DNA of 20,590 nt from NCBI RefSeq assembly GCF_000003605.2, contig NW_003158226.1:186838-207427 (forward strand). The letters run 5' to 3'. Below the pieces are notes generated by a model. That model was not told the origin of the DNA and searched no databases. It saw nothing but the letters and a program-made list of their open reading frames with translations. The translations under genes and the position numbers were made by a program. Every line of letters starts with the position of its first letter. Position 1 is the first letter of the stretch. Shown piece after piece: positions 12,901 through 20,590 of this stretch. This DNA is from Saccoglossus kowalevskii (taxonomy: Eukaryota > Hemichordata > Enteropneusta > Harrimaniidae).

Positions 12901-14632
12901 AATAAATATGTACATACACTAATAAAAAAAACCTTGAGATACAAATAATTCTAGCATAAAAACAAAATAATTGCCTATTACAACACTAGATGGCGCTTGT
13001 CAAATTCAAAATATAATTGTCCATTGTACAAAATAAAATTGATGTAACTAATCTCACACTATATACACAATTGTTTGAATCACTTGCAAATGTAACAGCC
13101 TGTAATTAAGTAGAAATGTACGTCCAACCACAACAAAGGCACAAACAAAAGGAGACATAATCAAAAATAACCCAACATCATACTGTAATGTAACTTCATT
13201 TTCATGATACACATAAGATTTTCAGACATAAAATAGCGACATTTCACATCAATTTCATATTTGTCACATAAATACCCTCGAATTCACAAACTTTGAAGAT
13301 TTAATAACGCTTTACGAAAAAGTATGTATCGTAATAACCACCCGCCAATCAAACTCGATCAGATTATATAGCCAACCACTTATTTTGAAAATTAATTATG
13401 AAACATGATAAATATCCCTTGTAATATATGAATATGAATAGTAAATACATATTATTGTAATTTTATCTTTTTCTCATCAATAATAGAATCAGCATTATAA
13501 ACTTTATCATGATTAGTTCCATTCATAATTTATCTATTCCATTTTTCTCCCTCCACAACAGTTCACATTTTCATGTGCCTACGTCTATTATTTTTTGCAG
13601 GACGCTTCAGGTAAACGATGCAGGCTGTCTATTTGGATTTACATGCACGTCCTTATATTGGGGGTAAGCTTGTAAAATCATAGACAAAAAACAGAATTCA
13701 TCCTGACATTCAAAAATCAACAATTCCAAACCAAACAAGAATCTTTCAGTACTGACATTAACCATTGTCCCCCTGACAATTTTTTTATTTATTTTCCTGT
13801 AATTTTTTTTTACTAATTTTGAAGCAAATGGTCAAAATTTCCTAATGACTATCAGATTTTGATCAGAATGTGGAAAAAAATTATGTACAAGATTTATTTT
13901 GTGTAAGGGGATAATAGTTGTGAAGTATAGACAAATTTCCATTCACTGTCAGATGTTACGAAATGTACAAAAGACACCTATCGAATACTGTGGAAGACTT
14001 TATTTTCGCTGGAAATAATTTTCGCTGAAAAGACCTTTTGGGCGTTTTGCTTGGAATTTGAAATATAGGAAAAAAAGTATATTCGCTGGATTTTATTTTC
14101 ACAGAATCATCCCTTCAGCGAAAATACCAAAATTAAATTCCAAGCAAAAATAAAGTATTCTACAGTACCTGCCACAAAAATCAAACAATTTGATTTTGAA
14201 CTTGAGTTTCTCTGCTTTAAAGTTCAAAGTCAAAATGTTTATTTTTCAGAGAGGAATATGGCATATTTACTTAGATCAAAATTGAGTTCATCAAATGTGT
14301 ATTTTTAAGCACGAAGATAACCACAATAATTACTACTGCTACATCTCATCCATTGTTTTGACATCGCTACATTGCTACTATGACCTTTGTCCTGTTTTTA
14401 TGGTCAATTTTGTGCATAATACAGGATCTTGCAGTAAATGGAAAATTGTCAATTGGGTGAAGATTTTTATACAGCACAAGACTTCTTGACAATCGGTCAC
14501 ATTTTTTTGTACCGATTCTGACGTAAAGAATGACAAGATGTGGAACCCGCTTGCAAAGCCGTCATCAAGAATTTAAGACAACTTTCTAAATCACGAAAGT
14601 AATGACTGTCTAGGAACAAAACCTTGTTTTTA
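9985..14632 (-). other. CpG-poor region; possible extended 3' UTR or flank of the ZDHHC gene
   Basis: Nearly 4.7 kb hold no exon that I can support. CpG is sparse, often none in 60 bases, in contrast to the DNA left of about 9,690. Homopolymer A and T runs and a C10 run near 12,786 are scattered through it. Open frames at 11254-11568 (minus) and 12320-12637 (plus) are low-complexity and lack recognised motifs. In invertebrates CpG depletion marks methylated transcription units, so this part may belong to the minus-strand ZDHHC transcript. An unseen separate gene is equally possible. Confidence 0.3.
13988..14165. mobile_element. MITE with imperfect terminal inverted repeats and TA duplication
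   Basis: The left end CTGTGGAAGACTTTATTTTC is mirrored by the right end, whose reverse complement reads CTGTAGAATACTTTATTTTT. Both continue into GCT-GGAA-type sequence with repeated TTTTCGCTG motifs inside. The 178-bp element is flanked by TA on both sides (13986-13987 and 14166-14167), the target duplication typical of Tc1/mariner-type elements. It encodes nothing. A related end is found at 9526-9567, so this is a family rather than a chance palindrome. The superfamily assignment is inferred from the TA only. Confidence 0.75.
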
Positions 14633-17598
14633 GTGAGTCAGTGATTTGTAAGAGATTCAGTGAGTCAGTGATTTGTAAGAGATTCAGTGAGTCAGTGATT
14701 TGTAAGGAATTCAGTGACTCAGTGATTTGTGAGAGATTCAGCAAGTCAGTGATTTGTGAGAGATTCAGCAAGTCAGTGATTTGTAAGAGATTCAGTGAGT
14801 CAGTGATTTGTAAGAGATTCAGCGAGTCAGTGATTTGTAAGAGATTCAGTGAGTCAGTGATATGTAAGAGATTCAGTGAGTCGGTTATTTGTAAGAAAGA
14901 TTCAGTGAGTCGGTTATTTGTAAGGAATTTAATGAGTCAGTGATTTGTAAGGAATTCAACAAGTCAGTGATTTGTAAGGGATTCAGCGAGTCAGTGATTT
15001 GTAAGGAATACAGTGAGTCAGTGATTTGTAAGGAATTCAGTGAGTCAGTGATTTGTGAGAGATTCAGCAAGTCAGTGATTTGTGAGAGATTCAGCAAGTC
15101 AGTGATTTGTAAGAGATTCAGTGAGTCAGTGATTTGTAAGAGATTCAGCGAGTCAGTGATTTGTAAGAGATTCAGTGAGTCAGTGATTTGTAAGAGATTC
15201 AGTGAGTCAGTGATTTGTAAGAGATTCAGTGAGTCAGTGATATGTAAGAGATTCAGTGAGTCGGTTATTTGTAAGGAATTTAATGAGTCAGTGATTTGTA
15301 AGGAATTCAACAAGTCAGTGATTTGTAAGGGATTCAGCGAGTCAGTGATTTGTAAGGGATTCAGCGAGTCAGTGATTTGTAAGGAATACAGTGAGTCAGT
15401 GATTTGTAAGGAATTCAGTGAGTCAGTGATTTGTGAGAGATTCAGCAAGTCAGTGATTTGTAAGAGATTCAGTGAGTCAGTGATTTGTAAGAGATTCAGT
15501 GAGTCAGTGATTTGTAAGGGATTCAGTGAGTCAGTGATTTGTAAGAGATTCAGTGAATCAGTGATTTGTAAGAGATTCAATGAGTCAGTGATTTGTAAGA
15601 GATTCAGTGAGTCAGTGATTTGTAAGATATTCAGTGAGTCAGTTATTTGTAAGAGATTCAGTGAGTCGGTTATTTGTAAGGAATTTAATGAGTCAGTGAT
15701 TTATAAGGAATTCAACAAGTCAGTGATTCGTAAGGGATTCAGCGAGTCAGTGATTTGTAAGGAATACAGTGAGTCAGTGATTTGTAAGGAATTCAGTGAC
15801 TCAGTGATTTGTAAGGAATTCAGTGACTCAGTGATTTGTAAGAGATTCAGTGAGTCAGTGATTTGGAAGGGATTCAGTGATTTGTAAGAGATTCAGTGAG
15901 TCGGTTATTTGTAAGAAAGATTCAGTGAGTCGGTTATTTGTAAGGAATTTAATGAGTCAGTGATTTGTAAGGAATTCAACAAGTCAGTGATTTGTAAGGG
16001 ATTCAGCGAGTCAGTGATTTGTAAGGAATACAGTGAGTCAGTGATTTGTAAGGAATTCAGTGAGTCAGTGATTTGTGAGAGATTCAGCAAGTCAGTGATT
16101 TGTAAGAGATTCAGTGAGTCAGTGATTTGTAAGAGATTCAGTGAGTCAGAGATTTGTAAGGGATTCAGTGAGTCAGTGATTTGTAAGAGATTCAGTGAGT
16201 CGGTTATTTGTAAGAGATTCAGTGAGACAGTGATTTGTAAGAGATTCAGTGAGTCAGTGAATTGTAAGAGATTCAGTGAGACAGTGATTTGTAAGAGATT
16301 CAGTGAGTCAGTGATTTGTAAGAGATTCAGTGAGTCGGTTATTTGTAAGGAATTTAATGAGTCAGTGATTTGTAAAAGATTCAGTGAGTCAGTGATTTGT
16401 AAGGGATTCAGCGAGTCAGTGATTTGTAAGAGTTTCAGTGAGTCAGTGATTTGTAAGGAATTCAGTGACTCAGTGATTTGTAAGGAATTCAGTGACTCAG
16501 TCATTTGCAAGAGATTCAGTGAGTCAGTGATTTGTAAGGAATTCAATGACTCAGTGATTTGCAAGAGACTCAGTGAGTCAGTGATTTGTAAGAGATTTAG
16601 TGAGTCAGTGATTTGTAAGAGATTCAGTGAGACAGTGATTTGTAAGAGATTCAGCGAGTCAGTGATTTGGAAGGGATTCAGTGAGTCAGTGATTTGTAAG
16701 AGATTCAGTGAGACAGTGATTTGTAAGAGATTCAGTGAGTCAGTGAATTGTAAGAGATTCAGTGAGACAGTGATTTGTAAGAGATTCAGCGAGTCAGTGA
16801 TTTGTAAGAGTTTCAGTGAGACAGTGATTTGTAAGAGATTCAGTGAGTCAGTGATTTGTAAGAGATTCAGTGACTCAGTGATTTGCAAGAGATTCAGTGA
16901 GTCAGTGATTTGTAAGAGATTCAGTGAGTCAGTGATTTGTAAGAGATTCAGTGAGACAGTGATTTGTAAGAGATTCAGTGAGACAGTGATTTGTAAGAGA
17001 TTCAGTGAGTCAGTGATTTGGAAGGGATTCGGTGAGTCAGTGATTTGTAAGGGATTCAGTGAGTCAGAGATTTGTAAGGGATTCAGTGAGTCAGTGATTT
17101 GTAAAGGATTCAGTGAGTCAGTGATTTGTAAGGGATTCAGTGAGTCAGTGATTTGTAAGGGATTCAGTAAGTCAGTGATTTGTAAGGGATTCAGTGAGTC
17201 AGTGATTTGTAAGAGATTCAGTGAGACAGTGATTTGTAAGAGATTCAGAGAGTCAGAGATTTGTAAGGGATTCAGTGAGTCAGTGATTTGTAAGGGATTC
17301 AGTGAGTCAGTGATTTGGAAGGGGTTTAGTGAGTCAGTAATTTATGAGGATTCAGTGAGTCAATGACTTGGAAGGAATTCAGTGATTTGGAAGGAATTCA
17401 GTGAAATGGAAGGGATTCAGTGATTTAGAAGGGATTCAGTGAGTCAATGGTGATTTAGAAGGGATTCAGTGAGTCAATGGTGATTTGTAAGGGATTCAGT
17501 GAGTCAATGATGATTTGTAAGGGATTCAGTGAGTCAATGATGATTTGTAAGGGATTCAGTGAGTCAGTGATTTGTAAGGGATTCAGTGAGTCAATGAT
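14633..17598. repeat. 27-bp minisatellite, about 110 copies, with higher-order structure
   Basis: The consensus unit is GTGAGTCAGTGATTTGTAAG followed by AGATTCA. From 14633 to about 17366 units are 27 bp with few exceptions: two 29-bp units (near 14884 and 15904) and a 19-bp unit near 15870. Variants recur in a fixed order, giving a higher-order repeat of 13-15 monomers (351 and 405 bp spacings) in the left two thirds. The right third is nearly monomeric, and the last ~230 bp degenerate into 19-bp and 30-bp units. Because 27 is a multiple of three, one frame stays open on each strand, giving a nonapeptide SVICKRFSE on plus and LQITDSLNL on minus. I do not regard these as genes: there is no start context, splice site or non-repeat coding sequence. 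G outnumbers C about 4:1 on the plus strand. Most units carry TGAGTCA. Confidence 0.97.
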
Positions 17599-17601
17599 GT
17601 T

Positions 17602-17636
17602 TGCATATATTTTACAACTCATTGAAAATATATGCA
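17602..17636. repeat. 12-bp perfect inverted repeat at the minisatellite edge
   Basis: TGCATATATTTT (17602-17613) and AAAATATATGCA (17625-17636) are exact reverse complements separated by 11 bases. The hairpin starts within a few bases of the last minisatellite unit. Confidence 0.85.
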
Positions 17637-18358: not shown

Positions 18359-19572
18359 CTAAATTGGAAGAAAAACAAAATTAGTCCTGAATTAATGTTT
18401 GAGGACACAAAATTATGTCACGTCTTTGTGAAAATTATGAACAAAATCTGTCCACCCCGTCAAAGAAATGGTTAAGGATAAATAAAAAATATATTAACAA
18501 TGCAGAGTCTCTATGTTATTTCACTGGTAGTCAATCTCAATGTTCAGTACACAACATAATCAAAGAAAACTTAGAAAGAACTCCCGTGTGCTGTGAAGTA
18601 TTGGAGTCTCATTAAAAATTAGTTAAAAATTTAAGATTAATCTTTCAAACAAGAAGCTTGGCAACTGATATTGGTGTGCTATTTGAGATGCACAACATGA
18701 AAACTATGTGAACCACATTATCAAAATTTAGAAATGTAATACCTAATTTCACAACTGTGGTTTTCAGTGTAATTAACCTGAAGAGAGCATGCATAAGGTA
18801 CCACATTTTTGAAAAACAAAACATCTACCAGTTGAAATTGAACAAAAACTGACAAAGCATGCATAAGATACCACATTTTTAATAAACAAAATGGCCACCA
18901 GACAGCCATCTGTGATTGAATAAGGAAACCACTCCATGAGTTTTGTAACTTGCTATGATCACATTAAAGAAAAACCTGTGGTTACTTTTAACAGCTACTG
19001 GACTTTTACTGAACAGTTATTCGATTAATTTTTCAGCTCGTAACGATAGAATCAGTCAATTTAGCACTGCCAAGTTGGCTATCAGAAAAGATTTTGACAC
19101 AATTTTACTGAAAAGATGAGTTTTTCATTAATATTAATTTATGCAAATGAGATGAATATTTCAACCAATCGTGTCATGCAACTTTGTTGCTCATACAAGG
19201 ACAAGTTATTAATGACACAGTCCCCGTCTTATGGAAACATTAATTGTATGTAACACTGACCTTATCACAAATAATGGCAAGAACAAAATGTCCAAATAGA
19301 ATGGTCTCAACATTAATGACACAGCCCCCATCTTATAGAAAAAATATATGTATGTAACACTGACCTGATCACAAATAATGGCAAGAACAAAAAGTCCAAA
19401 TAGAATGGTCTCAACATTAATGACACAGCCCCCGTCTTATAGAAAAAATATATGTATGTAACACTGACCTGATCACAAATAATGGCAAGAACAAAAAGTC
19501 CAAATAGAATGGTCTCAACATTAATGACACAGCCCCCGTCTTATAGAAAAAATATATGTAAGTAACACTGAC
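18359..19572 (-). other. Last coding intron of the ZDHHC gene
   Basis: A 1,214-bp intron runs from GTCAGT (19567-19572) to the acceptor before 18358. It is AT-rich and very CpG-poor at 18,600-19,020. It contains three extra copies of the upstream exon's end and donor (19208-19519) and a 70-bp-spaced duplication (18786-18902). No further exon is needed, since the coding phases on both sides join directly in a family-typical sequence. Confidence 0.85.
18786..18902. repeat. Two imperfect copies of a ~46-bp segment, 70 bp apart
   Basis: AGCATGCATAAGGTACCACA at 18786 recurs as AGCATGCATAAGATACCACA at 18856. Both continue through a TTTTT stretch and AACAAAA to a final ACCAG. The duplication is intronic with no sign of function. 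The minus-strand open frame across it (18721-18909) is a by-product. Confidence 0.75.
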
Positions 19573-19623
19573 CTGATCACAAATAATGGCAAGAACAAAA
19601 AATCCAAATAGAATGGACTCAAC
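19208..19623. repeat. 104-bp tandem repeat x4 spanning a ZDHHC exon-intron boundary
   Basis: Four units of exactly 104 bp (starts 19208, 19312, 19416, 19520) fill 416 bp. The rightmost unit contains the last 51 bp of the real exon (19573-19623) and 53 bp of intron. The other three are duplicates lying deeper in the intron on the minus strand. Each keeps a GTCAGT donor-like site, at 104-bp steps left of the real one: GATCAG|GTCAGT in two copies and GATAAG|GTCAGT in the most distal. The distal copy (19208-19311) is the most diverged and the inner copies are nearly identical. The array ends precisely where exon-specific sequence (TATCAGG on plus) resumes. Confidence 0.95.
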
Positions 19624-19645
19624 TATCAGGATCACTGTATGCGCT
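19573..19645 (-). CDS. ZDHHC palmitoyltransferase exon encoding the last transmembrane helix
   Basis: This 73-bp exon lies between a classic acceptor (TTTATTGTATTCTATTTCAG) and a CAG|GTCAGT donor. After one base that completes an upstream codon it encodes 24 residues, starting AHTVILIV and ending with a hydrophobic ESILFGFFVLAIICDQ. The pattern TVIL, E-x-x-LF, then a hydrophobic run ending in Q matches transmembrane helix 4 of the ZDHHC3/7-type enzymes, just before their DETxxE motif. It joins in phase 0 to the exon at 18358. The DHHC-CRD catalytic domain and earlier helices must lie upstream, beyond the right edge of the window. The exon's last 51 bp are part of the 104-bp tandem repeat, so alternative donors follow at +104, +208 and +312 nt. 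Confidence 0.88.
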
Positions 19646-20590
19646 CTGAAATAGAATACAATAAAGATTACAGTCTTTAAAGGCACATAATCCACGTCTA
19701 TTGTCTAGCATTGTTGTTATAGGTGGGGTTTCTGTAAGTCTAAAATCAACAAAGATGTTACCATCGTTTATTTAGGAGATTTTCAGAATGATAACTAAGT
19801 AAGGAAAACAAAACTGGAATTTGAAAAATCCAGAGTGACAGCAGTGTTGACCTTTAGCAGATTGTTATTTTTGTAACAGATTCTGCCTGTTTTCACCTAA
19901 AAAATCGTGTTCTGTACTGAAATGTCAACATAGTTATAACGCCCATATAAACACAACTATGTATATCCACCTCGGGGGAATCAGGGATTAAACTATGAAA
20001 TCCTCGCTAGACGTTAATCTATAAGCATCTTAAGACTACCGAACATGTTTATTACTTCAGGCGGTTGTCTGTCTAAAGTAGTTGTCCATCATTACAAAAT
20101 ATCAGATTTCACTGACTTTTATCATAAAGTAGTTGTCTACCATTACAAAATATCATCAGATTTCACTGACTTATCATAAAGTAGTTGTCTACCATTACAA
20201 AATATCATCAGATTTCACTGACTTTTATCATAAAGTAGTTGTCTGCCATTACAAAATATCATCAGATTTCACTGACTTTTTACCAAACGCTTCAGCGTGG
20301 TATTAAGAGTTTGTTTTCAGGGGTGGGTGATACCAAGGTGGGAAATGGATGCACATAAGGGGTTAATTCCTTGAATTGCAATATAGAGGGTTCAGGCCGA
20401 AATACAATATATAGTGTTTTCATGTTTCGTCTGATATTTCTGTGGTATTCTGCTGCTGTAAGTAATGCACGATTTGTTCCGAAATTCAGTATTTTGTGTG
20501 CATTCCAGGGTTATTCGTTTTTTGATGAAAACACCCCTATTTTTTAATGGCTTAGTCGAATAGTTTCACTCCCACTGGGAAATCTGCATT
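19646..20590 (-). other. Upstream ZDHHC intron, partial
   Basis: No upstream ZDHHC exon (DHHC-CRD or TM3) is visible on the minus strand between the acceptor at 19646 and the window edge. This is therefore at least 945 bp of intron. CpG becomes more frequent again beyond about 19,900. Besides the ~52-bp array at 20072-20281, nothing is seen. Confidence 0.7.
20072..20281. repeat. Intronic tandem repeat, 51-54 bp x4
   Basis: The unit begins near TAAAGTAGTTGTCTACCATT and continues through ACAAAATATCATCAGATTTC and ACTGACTT. Starts at 20075, 20126, 20178 and 20232 give spacings of 51, 52 and 54 bp. Length differences come from a missing ATC in the first copy and a missing TT in the second. Its role is unknown. 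Confidence 0.92.

Follow-up and report, generated by a model that had tools for sequence, protein, structure and literature searches.

How a gene accommodates the tandem duplication of one of its own exon ends, splice donor included, is the question raised by a locus of the hemichordate Saccoglossus kowalevskii, where such an array lies within the 20,590-nucleotide (nt) stretch of DNA that we analysed (the window; C4725:186838-207427 in the organism's own assembly). A preliminary description had placed the array in a ZDHHC gene and had read it either as a splicing switch or as a snapshot of exon-boundary amplification. The gene assignment holds, in that the array-bearing gene is, judged by its predicted product, a DHHC palmitoyltransferase. 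Searched by themselves, exons E and F (the two in the window) had no meaningful match in Pfam or PDB; the five exons B-F splice into a single open frame that finishes at the stop codon in the window, and this conceptual splice product contains an MDHHCPW motif and matches PF01529 with 129.5 bits (cut-off 28.7, E = 1.1e-37). The gene model comprises the following features, with positions in the window unless a contig is named:

Exon A, ending near C4725:224,490 in a DPG motif, upstream of exon B: assigned by the motif only.
Exon B, C4725:215786-215674, same strand as the window exons: carries the DHHC domain.
Exon C, C4725:215301-215240: lies between exons B and D.
Exon D, C4725:213040-212944: lies two exons after the DHHC exon B.
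Exon E, 19645-19573, minus strand: coding, 73 nt, open frame ending in phase 0; TM4 region, AHTVILIVESILFGFFVLAIICDQ; acceptor ttctatttcag, donor CAG|GTCAGT.
Intron E-F, 18359-19572, minus strand: 1214 nt, containing the three extra units of the array.
Exon F, 18358-18164, minus strand: terminal coding exon, LSAIFDDETAVE...QYDV-stop.

In the terminal exon, DETAVE is the counterpart, by alignment, of NRTTIE in human DHHC20 (ETAVE against RTTIE), a partial match to TTxE in which Ala replaces the second Thr; the TTxE region of DHHC enzymes is described as lying near the catalytic motif (PMC7586229). Intron D-E contains a 2.7-kb run of N, which is flanked by separate arrays of a 54-bp tandem unit upstream of exon E (window 20074-20280 and L016:3454-3564, L016 being the adjoining locus). 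Elsewhere in the window, at about 1378-1605 on the minus strand, there is an exon-like, proline-rich open frame ending ...PGTMANAKSGRKTQLVYCVVRNRS, which starts at an AG|GT that scores well as both acceptor and donor and for which Pfam gave no match.

Tandem Repeats Finder delimited the array at 19208-19623, with a period of 104, 4.0 copies, 95% matches, 0% indels and a score of 748, against a maximum of 62 across 30 dinucleotide shuffles of the window. The coordinates given in the preliminary description are thus right, as is its account of a 104-bp unit present four times, in which 51 bp of exon end are joined through the donor to 53 bp of intron. In the direction of transcription the units are:

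Unit 1, 19623-19520, minus strand: authentic exon end (51 bp) with its donor and 53 bp of intron.
Unit 2, 19519-19416, minus strand: duplicate of the exon end, with a decoy donor after 19469.
Unit 3, 19415-19312, minus strand: duplicate of the exon end, with a decoy donor after 19365.
Unit 4, 19311-19208, minus strand: the most diverged copy, with a decoy donor, AAG|GTCAGT, after 19261.

Units 2-4 sit on the intron side, between the 73-nt exon E and the terminal exon F. All four GTCAGT donors occur at the 104-bp steps described: those after 19573, 19469 and 19365 are identical CAG|GTCAGT sites, and the one after 19261 reads AAG|GTCAGT. Donors 1-3, identical over nine bases, rank in the top 0.32% of the 2491 GT sites in the window by matrices not trained on this species. 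Compared with copy 2, copies 1, 2, 3 and 4 match at 101, 104, 103 and 96 of 104 positions, respectively, and each of the 12 variable columns is altered in a single copy (three in copy 1, none in copy 2, one in copy 3 and eight in copy 4). The proposal that the expansion is recent or homogenised therefore fits copies 2 and 3, which differ at one position, but not copy 4 with its eight private changes. Of the variable columns, 4 fall within the 51 exon-like positions and 8 within the 53 intronic ones, a deficit in the former that is not significant (Fisher P = 0.36), so that the extra copies bear no mark of coding constraint. A search of the window against Rfam returned no match at the gathering score, and a 22-base stretch of the unit had no exact match in viral contigs.

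The array is not the only one at a splice boundary of this gene. Outside the window, the end of exon B (...GACCATCACTGCCCATG|GTAAGT) and its donor recur as a 32-bp unit, present 11 times and occupying most of a 372-nt intron, and all 10 of the later donors lead to a stop immediately after DHHCPW, so that wide use of these decoys would be costly. The second array outside the window affects an acceptor: a unit of 48 bp, repeated 4.6 times at L016:6018-6236 (C4725:213017-213235), carries the acceptor of exon D with approximately the first 24 bases of the exon, and the five copies of that acceptor have scores between 8.1 and 8.8 with matrices not trained on this species. Because this unit is in frame, splicing to an earlier acceptor would lengthen the start of the exon D segment by 16, 32, 48 or 64 residues; with steps of 16 residues and the frame kept, true isoform variation is more plausible for the exon D array than for the 104-bp donor array. 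Altogether, two donor arrays and one acceptor array occupy 3 of the 10 boundaries counted in the gene (donors A-E and acceptors B-F), which lends support to reading the locus as a snapshot of exon-boundary amplification.

This clustering is somewhat above expectation. Three of 10 boundaries in this gene, compared with 0 of 104 roughly picked sites elsewhere, gave a Fisher P of 0.0005, or 0.006 when the 104-bp array was omitted, and the probability that at least two of the nine other boundaries fall in arrays is 0.037 at the array density of random flank points (3.5%) and 0.23 at a density of 10%. In a survey of 64 loci, arrays were not in general over-represented at splice boundaries: they covered 1 of 49 donor-like sites, 0 of 56 acceptor-like sites and 434 of 12,560 random flank points, and the single donor-like positive was exon B of the present gene. 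The survey is rough, since its sites were chosen by matrices not trained on the species, many of its kinase matches may be intronless, three pairs of loci overlap (L008/L014, L011/L015 and L019/L022) and L036, cut by a contig end, is in effect outside it. Arrays with a period of 20 or more make up 3.0% of 204,288 bases sampled elsewhere in the genome, so that tandem duplications are a common feature of this genome. In the 47 kb surrounding the gene, 9.4% of bases lie in arrays once the three boundary arrays are subtracted, most of them in one satellite in the window, and the adjoining L016, again less the boundary arrays, contains 3.5%, no more than the genome sample. The idea of a regional hot spot of arrays is weakened by these figures, because the density in the window (15.4% without the 104-bp array) is mostly due to one 27-bp satellite and that of L016 is 3.5%. 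Chance placement explains only part of the clustering; its cause may be a local tendency to duplicate, tolerance on the part of the gene or luck.

Several further repeats were seen in passing. The 27-bp minisatellite of the window (14632-17603, about 110 copies) lies downstream of the DHHC gene and is open on both strands over 478 and 483 codons because 27 is a multiple of three. In another DHHC gene, at L013, a candidate boundary array was withdrawn, as the repeated stretch begins 13 nt inside the intron; it is a 145-bp unit repeated 5.6 times after an exon (L013:652-1488) and, by eye, is faintly like the exon end. At L019:999-1528 there is a 265-bp duplication (two copies), into which the C-terminal end of an uninterrupted match to protein kinases extends. 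At L071, two tandem AAA-domain exons about 40 nt apart (C2612:201339-201176 and 201137-200974) are 74% identical over 164 nt, and this putative pair looks like mutually exclusive exons.

What, then, does the 104-bp array do? We think it probable that it is a mirage-type minisatellite, produced by near-neutral tandem duplication, in which splicing takes the copy next to the exon and discards the others. The 104 bp across the exon-intron boundary would have been duplicated in tandem, the inner copies would afterwards have spread or been homogenised, and the exon-touching donor would be used, with the extra copies lying in the intron and being removed with it. Near-neutrality would follow from the position of the used copy, which touches the body of the exon so that the extra copies leave with the intron. 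We infer both the use of the exon-touching donor and the absence of a regulatory role for the array, which appears to have left the exon structure as it was. Against this reading, donors 1-3 are identical, and nothing in their letters explains why the first of them should win. SRSF1 is described in the cited text as favouring intron-proximal donors and hnRNP A1 as favouring intron-distal ones (PMC5585400); in this array, the intron-proximal donors would be the decoys.

The equal strength of donors 1-3 could instead serve an alternative-splicing switch, in which regulated use of the decoys would swap or truncate the C-terminal tail. The arithmetic of the preliminary description is correct: retaining one, two or three units adds 104, 208 or 312 nt, leaving remainders of 2, 1 and 0 on division by three, and the read-through meets a stop at 19417-19419. 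One retained unit would keep the frame open into the terminal exon, where a 75-residue replacement tail would end, and two or three would bring an early stop, 52 nt or 156 nt, respectively, before the last junction. However, the unit length is not a multiple of three, the alternative tail would lack the DETAVE region, and similar lancelet arrays are reported to keep splicing regular (PMC3087553, PMC3902484). With the donors of copies 1-3 identical, and splicing apparently undisturbed in those lancelet genes, the proposed switch finds no support in our analysis, and we regard it as very unlikely. We give even less credence to an assembly artefact with fewer units at the true locus: the assembly does contain gaps, and copies 2 and 3, one base apart, could put the unit count off by one, but the copies are told apart by twelve variable columns and the stretch is placed once in this one assembly.

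A further alternative accepts that decoys may be chosen and supposes that the choice is corrected. Copies 1-3 end in CAG|GTCAGT after a pyrimidine tract and are thus acceptor-like as well, which makes the unit resemble an intron and suggests that a wrong donor choice might be undone. Each intron-like unit holds, in order, a donor, a branch-like TTAAT, a pyrimidine-rich tract and an AG, and the stretch before CAG|GTCAGT in copies 1-3 (70% pyrimidine over 37 bases) encodes a membrane helix. Every CAG|GTCAGT would then be dual-specific and every 104-nt unit an intron, forming a recursive ladder: a decoy donor would first be joined to the terminal exon, and the retained whole units would later be removed by a second splice, restoring the normal mRNA. 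Tandem dual-specific sites are reported to be spliced in this way in human UBC (PMC10809524), and the three units each have a branch-like TTAAT 53 nt short of their end, followed by just one additional AG, which starts 6 nt on. As acceptors, copies 1-3 reach 7.28 and the two acceptors in the window 7.46 and 7.59; three further matrices put the copies below both of these acceptors (T-rich), between them (C-rich) or above both (weak tract), and under the four matrices, none trained on the species, the copies fall in the top 1.5-3.1% of AG sites. Yet exons B, C and D have higher-scoring acceptors (12.1, 14.1 and 8.76), two AGs of intron E-F without a known role, at 18909 and 18777, outscore copies 1-3, copy 4 is a poor acceptor (2.68) and the distance from branch to AG is long. 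In the exon B array such a ladder is impossible, as its 32-nt units have no AG before the GT. We therefore consider removal of retained units by a second splice unlikely in this gene. In general form, which we hold just as doubtful, the idea would be that helix-coding exon ends at CAG|GT bring a built-in pyrimidine tract, so that their tandem duplication might yield ready-made introns and a decoy choice could be erased recursively. If true, the growth of arrays would cost little, which would help to account for their presence at boundaries in more than one deuterostome phylum, and the ladder made in this way would offer a route to new introns.

The near-neutral, mirage-type reading compares this locus with lancelet genes, and the mitochondrial DNA bears on the identity of the host. 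The GC content of loci L001-L018 is 31-37%, against a figure near 41% for lancelets, and this too argues against a lancelet host. The mitochondrial contig (C4830; 17,037 bp) has nd5 adjoining cob, followed by trnP, nd6 on the opposite strand and trnF, with the genes named by Pfam. Aligned with the bovine chain in 1occ, the nine ATA codons of COX1 fall on Ile five times (residues 72, 203, 277, 353 and 468), on Val three times, on Leu once and never on Met; in comparison with the 7o37 chain, one falls on Met. The sole AAA codon of COX1 lies on a conserved Lys. In the literature cited, ATA for Ile is common to echinoderms and hemichordates and AAA for Asn is special to echinoderms, nd5 and cob are adjacent in hemichordates and Xenoturbella and have nd6 between them in chordates (PMC2697986), and the lancelet mitochondrial gene orders described differ from that of C4830 (PMC2034537). 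Mitochondrial code and gene order thus indicate the hemichordate type, not the lancelet one. COX1 is inverted relative to ND1 and COX2 (L069/C4830), unlike the hemichordate and chordate orders described in the cited text (PMC2697986).

Lancelet mirages are minisatellite-like duplications of exon-intron boundaries, described, in the two reports cited, from Adh3, TnC, the globins BflGb6 and BflGb9, and PGBD5; their units measure 10-160 bp and may lie at the donor or the acceptor end, and the edges of the clusters are excluded from homogenisation (PMC3087553, PMC3902484). In these reports, regular splicing is stated to be undisturbed by the Adh3, TnC and globin mirages (PMC3087553, PMC3902484). 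The present array is alike in that its 104-bp units join an exon end (51 bp) to the adjoining intron (53 bp), with the extra copies on the intron side, and the two arrays described within lancelet PGBD5 compare with three in this one DHHC gene. The hosts of mirages in the literature that we found are lancelets, whereas the host here is a hemichordate. No hemichordate mirage was found in the open-access literature, which is weak evidence for its absence from print, and searches of that literature under donor competition and boundary minisatellites gave no match under those headings. Our analysis thus extends boundary-spanning minisatellites, described from lancelets in the papers found, to a hemichordate, and provides a single gene in which two donors and one acceptor lie in arrays and whose RNA would show how the spliceosome selects between neighbouring sites that are identical.

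A repeated splice donor also features, by its title, in the work of Turri et al. (1995), who reportedly described several donors within a minisatellite of an interferon-induced transcript, which we take to be that of IFI6. In human UBC, the tandem dual-specific sites have AGGT at each unit boundary, and their splicing is documented by RNA (PMC10809524). The present array likewise has AGGT at every unit boundary, and its unit could in principle be exon or intron; the UBC units, as described there, are coding and 228 nt long, a multiple of three, whereas those here are 104 nt and partly intronic. Boundary duplications that create introns, as reviewed elsewhere (PMC3443670), also carry splice signals along. 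Those duplications yielded a new intron and an exon segment that were seen in RNA, whereas here the exon structure is apparently unchanged, and a boundary array of this kind would be a substrate from which tandem duplication could build new introns.
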